NCBI GenBank assembly: GCA_018064925.1
Contig: JAGHUH010000013.1
Location: 1 to 64,000, forward strand
Direction: 5' to 3'
DNA from: Candidatus Cacconaster stercorequi
GTDB lineage: Bacteria; Bacillota; Clostridia; Oscillospirales; Oscillospiraceae
Length of the DNA: 64,000 bases
Made by a program: the position numbers and the translations under genes. Under the pieces are notes generated by a model, which had not been told where the DNA came from, ran no database searches, and saw only the letters and a list, made by a program, of their open reading frames with translations. How positions within the stretch are numbered: position 1 is the stretch's first letter; each line of letters opens with the position of its first letter. Shown one piece after another: positions 5,219 through 62,041 of this stretch.

Positions 5219-5724
5219 GTGGTATCCTCCTTTCTTTTTATTTGAACCATTTCTGATCCACTAAAACCTCAAAGATAATCTTTGGGGCTTTAGTGGTTGC
5301 ACTTAATTTTTCCTCGAACCCCAAGTGCAAAAAAGGAAATCATCAGACGCCCGATAGCGAATCGGGTCCATGGGAATCTCACCCCTGCCGGGTTCTCCGC
5401 CAGCTCCGTAGAGAAGTATCATTAGCCCTGTAGCGTTTCATTGCCATATCCGTAGCTGTCGGATATTTCAGAATGGTTCGGAAACGCTCGCCACCTTGCT
5501 TTCCGTTATAACCCGGATGGGCAGGAGGGTCTTGGCGCACCTTCATTCGGCTGGAGCTCTCGCCCCCGCACAGGAACGTACCTGATGAATGTATATTCGG
5601 TTGTCAAAGTGCATCGAGGTTTTTTGTTCCTCAAAGAGTAGGCAGCGAGAAAGGCCAAAAATTGCGGGTAGACCAAAAAAAGTTGTAAAAATTTTTTCAT
5701 GAGCTCCTCCAGCGAATAAAAAAA

Positions 5725-29541: not shown

Positions 29542-29649
29542 ATGGCGACACTACTCTACTTTAACTAAATAATTATACCACAAACCAAAAATCGCGTAAA
29601 GAGATTTTGTAATGATTTACACCCCGGAAAAATTATGGTAAGATGGCAG

Positions 29650-29815
29650 GGATATGCAGGGAAACAGGTGCAAATCCTGTGCGAGCCCGTCGCCGTAATG
29701 AGCCATTTCCGTGTGTTGTCCTTACCCGCAGCCGCATGCGGGGACAGGTCATTGGCAGTTTGCTGAGAAGGCCGGACAAACACCGCTCAAAGCCGAAATA
29801 TCTGCATACCAAAAC
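29650..29815 (+). promoter_or_regulatory. Cobalamin riboswitch
   Basis: GGGAAACAGGTGCAAATCCTGTGCGAGCCCGTCGCCGTAATG ... GGCAGTTTGCTGAGAAGGCC ... AAAGCCGAAATATCTGC match the ordered conserved blocks of the Cbl aptamer. Confidence 0.85.
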
Positions 29816-29877
29816 ACCTCCGCCATTTGCCGCGAGCGCCGGCGCAGGAGGAATATAAAACATAAGGAGAAAATGCG

Positions 29878-30324
29878 ATGAAAAAGACAGGCATGAAAAG
29901 ATGGCTGCGCATTTTTCTGTGCGTGGTGCTGATTGCGGCAATGGCACTGGCGGCAGTGGGATGCACAGACAAGACGGAGAGCGCCCCCGGCGACGCGTCC
30001 ATCACCTATACCGACGGCAGTGAGCTGGGTCAGGGTGAAAAGGCGTTTGCACTGACGGTGACGGAGCAGGACGGCAAGGAGAGTCATTTCACCGTCCATA
30101 CGGATGATGCCACCGTGGGTGAGGCGCTGCTGGATCTGGGACTGATCCAAGGCGAGCAGGGCGACTACGGCTTGTATGTGAAAACCGTGAACGGCATCAC
30201 GGCGGATTATGACACCGATGGCGTCTACTGGGCGTTCTATGTAAATGGCGAGTATGCCGCGACGGGTGTGGATACCACAGCCATCACCGACGGCGCGGAC
30301 TATGCGCTGAAGGTGGAAAAATAA
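29878..30324 (+). CDS. DUF4430 (transcobalamin-C-terminal-like) lipoprotein
   Basis: AMALAAVGCTDK lipobox; TVGEALLDLGLIQGEQGDYGLYVKTVNGITADYDTDGVYWAFYVNGEYAATGVDTTAITDGADYALKVEK. Confidence 0.85.
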   Translation: MKKTGMKRWLRIFLCVVLIAAMALAAVGCTDKTESAPGDASITYTDGSELGQGEKAFALTVTEQDGKESHFTVHTDDATVGEALLDLGLIQGEQGDYGLYVKTVNGITADYDTDGVYWAFYVNGEYAATGVDTTAITDGADYALKVEK

Positions 30325-30337
30325 GATACCCATTAAA

Positions 30338-30359
30338 AGCCCGCCGATGTCGGCGGGCT
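30338..30359 (+). terminator. terminator after DUF4430 gene
   Basis: AGCCCGCCGAtgTCGGCGGGCTTTTT. Confidence 0.75.
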
Positions 30360-30443
30360 TTTTGTGTGGAGCAGCAGGAAATAAAGTTGCAAAATCGTGT
30401 GATGCGGGGTATGATAATTAAAATATACTATGCGAGGGAGCTT

Positions 30444-30935
30444 ATGCTGTATCTTATCATTCTGGCCGCGCTGATTGCCGCCGATCAGGGATTGAAATAT
30501 TGGACGGTCACGCATCTGGCGCTGGGCGAAACCACCGCTTTCCTGCCGCCGCTGGTGCAGCTGACCCGCCTGCATAACTACGGCGCGGCGTGGTCCAGCC
30601 TGTCCGGCAAAACGGTGGTGCTGCTGGTGGTCACCACGATTTTGATGGCGGCGGTGGCGGTGCTGCTGGTGAAAAAGATCGTGCGCCATCCGTTGGGCGT
30701 GACCGCCGGATTGCTGATTTTAGGCGGCGGGATCGGCAACTATATCGACCGCATCGCCCACGGCTATGTGGTGGATATGTTCGATCTGATGTTCATGAAC
30801 TACCCCGTGTTCAATCTGGCGGACTGCTTTGTGGTGGTGGGTGCCATTCTGGGCGCGGTCTACTACCTGTGGATTTACGATAAGTACGATAAAAGGACAA
30901 AAAACCATGACAACGACCCTGCAGGCGACAAGTGA
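30444..30935 (+). CDS. lspA: Signal peptidase II
   Basis: LYLIILAALIAADQGLKYWT; RLHNYGAAWSSL; GGGIGNYIDRIAHGYVVDMFDLMFMNYPVFNLADCFVVVG. Confidence 0.95.
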   Translation: MLYLIILAALIAADQGLKYWTVTHLALGETTAFLPPLVQLTRLHNYGAAWSSLSGKTVVLLVVTTILMAAVAVLLVKKIVRHPLGVTAGLLILGGGIGNYIDRIAHGYVVDMFDLMFMNYPVFNLADCFVVVGAILGAVYYLWIYDKYDKRTKNHDNDPAGDK

Positions 30936-34532: not shown

Positions 34533-34767
34533 TAACGCTGCAAAAAATGCAGCGTCAAAGGGCAGACAAAGGAGCCACAGCCAAACGCGGACACGCCTGT
34601 GTCCGTGATGAATACTGTGGGATAGATTTGTTTGTCCTTCCGGCGCTGACGAGATTAGCTGTCGTGTTAGAGGGGGAAGGTCCTCCGCCATAAATAACGC
34701 ATATGGCTGCACACCCGAAGTTGGTTCTCCCGCCGAAGCTCGTAAAAACTTCGTTAAGCGTGCCCGC
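34533..34767 (-). promoter_or_regulatory. c-di-AMP (ydaO-yuaA) riboswitch with terminator hairpin, in kup leader
   Basis: minus strand GCGGGCACGCTTAACGAAG...GCGGGAGAACCAACTTCGGGTGTGCAGCC... then terminator ACGCTGCATTTTTTGCAGCGTTATTTTTTA just upstream of kup. Confidence 0.85.
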
Positions 34768-34886
34768 ATTATAGCACTCCTATTTAAAAATGTCCATAGG
34801 AAATTTCCCATATACGAGTTTTTGAAAAAAATTTGAAAAAAGTGTTGACAAAAACAGGGGTCTGCGCTATTATATCAGTGTTGTCC

Positions 34887-41439: not shown

Positions 41440-41474
41440 ATAGGAAAGACGGAAAAAATAAGTCCGATACAGCC

Positions 41475-41645
41475 CAATGATAGCGCTCCACAAAGTAATT
41501 GTGACAGTCCGGCAGGTATTTCCTGACGGCCCAGCTCTGAAAATGCAGGCCAAATTCAAAGCTTCGGCGACGACCCCTTTCCCGCCTGGCGGCTACCTGA
41601 CCTTGCCAAACGGTACTGATGAACATCGCACCTCTATCAAGCGAT
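41475..41645 (-). promoter_or_regulatory. Lysine riboswitch (L-box)
   Basis: minus strand GATAGAGGTGCGA...AGTACC...GGCGGGAAAGGGGTCGTCGCCGAAGC...GCTGGGCCGTCAGGAAATACCTGCCGGACTGTCAC...GTGGAGCGCTATC. Confidence 0.88.
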
Positions 41646-61927: not shown

Positions 61928-62041
61928 GGCAGCGGGATGCGAAATCTGTACTGCAGGCAATGCCGTTTCGTCCGATGGACAACTCCCCGTTCCATCGGCA
62001 CTGGACCTCAAGGGCCGCGACACACAGATTTCTACTCTGCC
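61928..62041 (-). promoter_or_regulatory. Tetrahydrofolate (THF) riboswitch
   Basis: minus strand GGCAGAGTAGAAATCTGTGTG...TGCCGATGGAACGGGGAGTTGTCCATCGGACGAAACGGCA...GCAGTACAGATTTCGCATCCCGCTGCC. Confidence 0.92.

Follow-up and report, generated by a model that had tools for sequence, protein, structure and literature searches.

A cobalamin riboswitch-linked DUF4430 lipoprotein of Candidatus Cacconaster stercorequi as a candidate corrinoid-capture partner of an ECF importer

What is a solitary lipoprotein gene, with no transporter beside it, doing behind a cobalamin riboswitch? The question is raised by a locus in the window, which is the whole 64,000-nucleotide stretch of DNA analysed here (positions 1 to 64,000 of contig JAGHUH010000013.1 from the Candidatus Cacconaster stercorequi assembly GCA_018064925.1). 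The plus strand carries a complete small transcription unit, made up of a promoter-like site, a cobalamin riboswitch, a ribosome binding site, a lipoprotein gene and a terminator. The promoter-like site (TTTACA-17-TAAGAT, 29616–29644, with a TG preceding the −10 element, as in extended −10 promoters) came from a consensus scan; it is weak, matches by consensus only and puts the predicted transcription start at about 29651. A ribosome binding site, AAGGAG (29864–29869), is followed 8 nt downstream by the ATG of a gene for a 148-aa lipoprotein (29878–30324), which is closed by an intrinsic terminator consisting of a 12-bp hairpin and a T run (30335–30363; −27.7 kcal/mol, z −6.6). The unit is monocistronic, with no adjoining transporter at the locus, in agreement with a preliminary description of this DNA that had read it as a B12-responsive unit with a terminator of its own.

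The upstream neighbour is a divergent miaB-like gene, and past the terminator lies an lspA-like gene (30444–30935, plus strand). The lspA product is the peptidase that matures lipoproteins; the placement of this gene just beyond the terminator of a lipoprotein gene is probably coincidence. The same window also holds, all on the minus strand, lysine (41473–41644), THF (61928–62041) and c-di-AMP (34629–34770) riboswitches and a pemK RNA (5368–5425), with the c-di-AMP riboswitch overlapping the listed ORF start of a KUP-like potassium transporter.

A covariance-model search with the Cobalamin model of Rfam, one of the checks proposed in the preliminary description, matched the aptamer (RF00174) at 29600–29823 on the plus strand with a cmscan score of 35.0 bits, 3.5 bits over the gathering score of 31.5 bits (E 3.4e-5 for the whole window, 1.8e-7 locally). 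The transcribed part probably spans about 29650–29815: given the predicted start at about 29651, this interval, which is also where the aptamer had originally been placed, fits better than the start of the model match at 29600. The riboswitch is of class-I type and its conserved core is intact (GGTGCAAATCC, CCCGTCGCCGTAA, GTCATTGG...CTGAGAAGGC). Across ten leaders of DUF4430 genes, compensatory changes were seen at 13 of the 24 consensus pairs, with a covariation score that none of 500 shuffles reached and that exceeded the scores of all slid versions of the structure.

Directly 3′ of the aptamer lies a hairpin, CCUCCGC...GCAGGAGG (29817–29851, plus strand; −14.8 kcal/mol), that has no T run and holds AGGAGG paired within it; nothing resembling a terminator hairpin turned up in the leader. 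The paired AGGAGG suggests that this hairpin, which folds no better than shuffled sequences (z −0.41), is a possible expression platform acting by translational control. The minimum-energy fold of the whole leader was no better than shuffles (z +0.41), and so no structural claim is built on that fold.

Is the link between riboswitch and gene peculiar to this genome? The window genome and 59 relatives together contain 79 DUF4430 matches and 88 cobalamin riboswitches. When short DUF4430 genes were defined as those whose match lies in a frame no longer than 300 aa (n = 45), 17 of them had a cobalamin riboswitch upstream on the same strand, compared with 0.02 expected by chance placement if the genes are counted as independent; in these 17, the distance from the end of the riboswitch to the domain match was 283 to 564 bases. 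A permissive search returned sub-threshold cobalamin-type matches before four more DUF4430 genes (AdoCbl-II in L071, L073 and L031; RF00174 in L082). A scan of 84,980 species genomes then yielded at least 557 relatives, the best 80 mostly from Lachnospiraceae, and among the first 40 a riboswitch lay within 900 bases upstream in 27 (0.007 expected, with relatives counted as independent); most of the genomes concerned hold just one or two cobalamin riboswitches. The association between DUF4430 genes and cobalamin riboswitches for which the preliminary description had suggested a survey is thus found in many genomes.

Several of the closest same-genus homologues (L064–L068) gave no cobalamin riboswitch, even in the permissive search, and DUF4430 is also found in large adhesin-like proteins without a riboswitch; we therefore limit our claim to the short, riboswitch-linked branch of DUF4430. 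In L066 and L067, short same-genus DUF4430 genes lie divergently beside TPP riboswitches, and no cobalamin riboswitch was found.

Larger arrangements also occur. A 1500-aa protein of cell-wall type, carrying S-layer homology domains and DUF4430, lies immediately 3′ of a cobalamin riboswitch (L191:1050–5558, plus strand). Two further cobalamin riboswitch-controlled proteins (L085:6440–8179, minus strand; L087:3146–5218, plus strand) join DUF4430 to a weak match to the prenyltransferase/squalene-cyclase alpha-alpha toroid, which tentatively hints at a transcobalamin-like domain pair in reversed order. Behind another cobalamin riboswitch (L186:997–2994, plus strand) stands a CbiK cobalt chelatase that resembles a lipoprotein and gives a NEAT match below threshold, and BtuFCD-like genes come next.

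What, then, does the gene encode? Judged by its sequence, the product begins with a signal peptide whose lipobox (...ALAAVGC) leads to Cys29, so that lipoprotein processing is predicted, and continues through a short linker into a transcobalamin-beta-like domain; the lipobox cysteine is invariant in all 11 sequences of the alignment (A2). Residues 78–139 (30109–30294, plus strand) match DUF4430 (PF14478) with 38.3 bits against a cut-off of 23.8, and the original naming of a 148-aa DUF4430 lipoprotein holds. The most conserved DUF4430 segments here are YGLYVKTVNG and YWAFYVNGEYA. The nearest solved protein by sequence is 3u7z of Ruminococcus gnavus (E 1.6e-12); matches to complement C8 and to designed repeats in the search of solved structures scored low and were taken as chance. 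A profile of 33 relatives matches human transcobalamin-1 (haptocorrin) with an E-value of 0.0018, and conservation is strongest in the stretch that aligns to the haptocorrin beta domain.

Comparison of folds leads to the same animal proteins. When an AlphaFold2 model of the lipoprotein (pLDDT 83, pTM 0.68) was submitted to Foldseek, 3u7z came first and ranks 3–19 were occupied exclusively by haptocorrin, transcobalamin and intrinsic factor, a run of 17 consecutive carrier chains with E-values, for this predicted model, of 2e-6 to 3e-4. The fold matches include isolated transcobalamin beta domains, both apo (5no0) and B12-bound (5np4), and beyond 3u7z and the B12 carriers the search gave no match with E < 0.01. 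The relationship of DUF4430 to transcobalamin and intrinsic factor, which had been put forward from the letters of the sequence, is thereby upheld. At 148 aa the protein has one domain only, and the alpha domain, which contributes to the very high affinity of transcobalamin, is absent; the protein may therefore act like a beta domain, although it does not count as a transcobalamin. In crystals, the beta domain of human transcobalamin on its own binds both cyanocobalamin and cobinamide and changes little in structure (PMC5599065), which makes a lone beta-type domain plausible as a B12 binder.

A candidate transporter for such a ligand appears as soon as other genomes are considered. Among the best 80 of the at least 557 relatives, the next gene in 79 loci encodes a membrane protein of about 170 aa, an ECF S component to which no Pfam family corresponds, and the same pair of DUF4430 and S-component genes occurs in 14 loci of the window’s own order. 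Among solved structures, the only sequence relative of these neighbouring S components is 6FNP chain A, which from its length and the match we take to be the S component of ECF-CbrT, the experimentally proven importer of B12 and cobinamide from Lactobacillus delbrueckii (PMC5997447). A search with the predicted fold of the S component found PanT, BioY and RibU without singling out CbrT; with matches at E of about 0.5 (the best) or worse, it supports the class and not the substrate. In three relatives (L075, L079 and L082) the DUF4430 gene and an EcfT-EcfA-EcfA-S operon are neighbours placed back to back, with a cobalamin riboswitch match on each side, some of these below the curated cut-off, and in other relatives the first gene of the ECF operon is a longer DUF4430 gene.

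The window genome has two cobalamin riboswitches in total, and the one other than the DUF4430 leader (G000:C36; 67.8 bits) drives EcfT together with an 876-aa EcfAA′-S fusion of two ECF ATPases and an S domain. This S domain matches 6FNP chain A (E 5.9e-9) and, by sequence, no other S component among solved structures. A solitary S component of the Lachnospiraceae-like kind was not found in the window genome by a search run without a positive control. The description of the gene as lone, with no ABC or ECF transporter attached, accordingly stands for the locus and fails for the genome, where the other riboswitch controls an ECF transporter whose S domain is CbrT-like; in relatives, too, the gene usually adjoins a CbrT-like S component or an ECF operon.

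The best explanation, and one that we regard as probable, is that a surface-anchored, transcobalamin-like protein of the beta domain only binds a corrinoid outside the cell and delivers it to an ECF importer of CbrT type whose genes lie at another locus, with cobalamin shutting expression off. We infer each of its parts: corrinoid binding, hand-off to the S component, the identity of the ligand, the OFF direction and the regulatory step. The ECF importer unit elsewhere in the genome has a cobalamin riboswitch too, and a single B12 regulon comprising two units, one for capture and one for import, would account for this most simply. Under cobalamin shortage, both leaders would permit expression; the lipoprotein, anchored outside the membrane, would capture a corrinoid (B12 or a relative), probably on a face formed by its two most conserved segments, and would pass this ligand on to the importer’s S domain. 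As cobalamin accumulates, both leaders would close, control of the lipoprotein probably being translational.

The near-constant neighbourhood with S components would also suit a lipoprotein that assists the ECF S component or its assembly, binds protein and not corrinoid, and is co-regulated with the transporter for that reason; so would the occurrence of DUF4430 in large surface proteins without a riboswitch, and the fact that some homologues appear membrane-anchored and not lipoproteins. We consider this unlikely, because the carriers of cobalamin make up the fold matches exclusively once 3u7z is set aside and because conservation peaks where the domain aligns to the haptocorrin beta domain.

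The use that the genome might make of a captured corrinoid bears on the identity of the ligand. In the window genome, a bin that is 88% complete, we found no B12-binding domain (PF02310), no class II ribonucleotide reductase NrdJ, no QueG and no credible cobalamin adenosyltransferase; a weak adenosyltransferase match (G000:C29) was rejected, because the sequence that holds it resembles a mobilisation relaxase and contains a coiled coil. That none of these was found, in a genome with a pair of cobalamin riboswitches and an ECF operon of B12 type, speaks against the proposed role. Incompleteness of the bin is a likely explanation, given its 88% and given that PF02310 is present in 31 of the 37 genomes compared, a total in which the window’s own is included. 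The want of a recognised B12 enzyme would also agree with a ligand other than B12 itself—a precursor such as cobinamide, a lower-ligand base or a tetrapyrrole—and cobinamide is bound both by CbrT (PMC5997447) and by the transcobalamin beta domain (PMC5599065). The DUF4430 gene stands alone, however, with no linked cobamide assembly or lower-ligand genes in the window, and we judge such a ligand decidedly unlikely.

Binding of cobalt or another metal has two points to recommend it: the depositors of 3u7z, the solved homologue, named it a putative metal binding protein, and in C. difficile a cobalamin riboswitch controls the cobalt importer cbiMNQO (PMC11477304). Yet the partner S components are CbrT-like by sequence, the fold is that of the cobalamin carriers and the domain alignments contain no conserved cluster of His or Cys residues, all of which make a metal ligand very improbable. 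That gene and riboswitch are a relict, left over in a lineage that has given up using B12, is scarcely credible: the missing PF02310, NrdJ, QueG and adenosyltransferase and a riboswitch merely 3.5 bits over its cut-off would fit, but the reading frame, lipobox and terminator are intact, an ECF operon lies under the second riboswitch, the bin is 88% complete and PF02310 occurs in most relatives.

Beyond corrinoid capture in this one genome, DUF4430 proteins might in general serve CbrT-type ECF importers, which are otherwise described as capturing their ligand with the membrane S component only, as extracellular subunits dedicated to corrinoid binding; the domain, which also occurs fused to an alpha-alpha-toroid-like one in proteins under cobalamin riboswitches, might then be a bacterial counterpart of the animal B12 carriers. 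On this wider proposal we hold the scales to be even. If the proposed role is true, the short branch of DUF4430 with riboswitch linkage acquires a function, and ECF importers gain a capture protein. A widespread riboswitch-linked domain with the fold of human B12 carriers is a directly testable candidate, with implications for B12 competition within the gut and for the origin of the animal carriers.

Of the known systems that come close, 3u7z (RUMGNA_00854) has the same DUF4430 domain (aligned structurally, 36% identity and 1.1 Å rmsd) and differs in its deposition as a putative metal binding protein; a search of largely open-access literature found no paper on its function, and none linking bacterial DUF4430 with B12. 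The beta domain of transcobalamin, haptocorrin and intrinsic factor shares the predicted fold and gives a weak but significant profile match; the animal carriers, however, have an additional alpha domain, are soluble and are read by receptors, whereas the DUF4430 protein described here is a bacterial lipoprotein of the beta type alone. BtuG and BtuH of the Bacteroidetes (PMC6143338, PMC8941943) are surface lipoproteins that catch B12 ahead of an importer, as is predicted here, but they belong to another phylum and serve another importer, and their chains are not among the sequence or fold matches of the lipoprotein to solved structures. ECF-CbrT is the only solved structure matched by sequence both by the S domain of the genome’s ECF operon and by the S gene of the homologues; there, the S component is itself the binding protein and has no extracellular partner (PMC5997447), whereas in the window genome a capture lipoprotein would be added and one polypeptide joins the S domain to the ATPases. 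Each of the elements, cobalamin riboswitches, DUF4430 and ECF-CbrT, is already known; what would be new is a dedicated extracellular protein that captures B12 for an importer of the ECF type.
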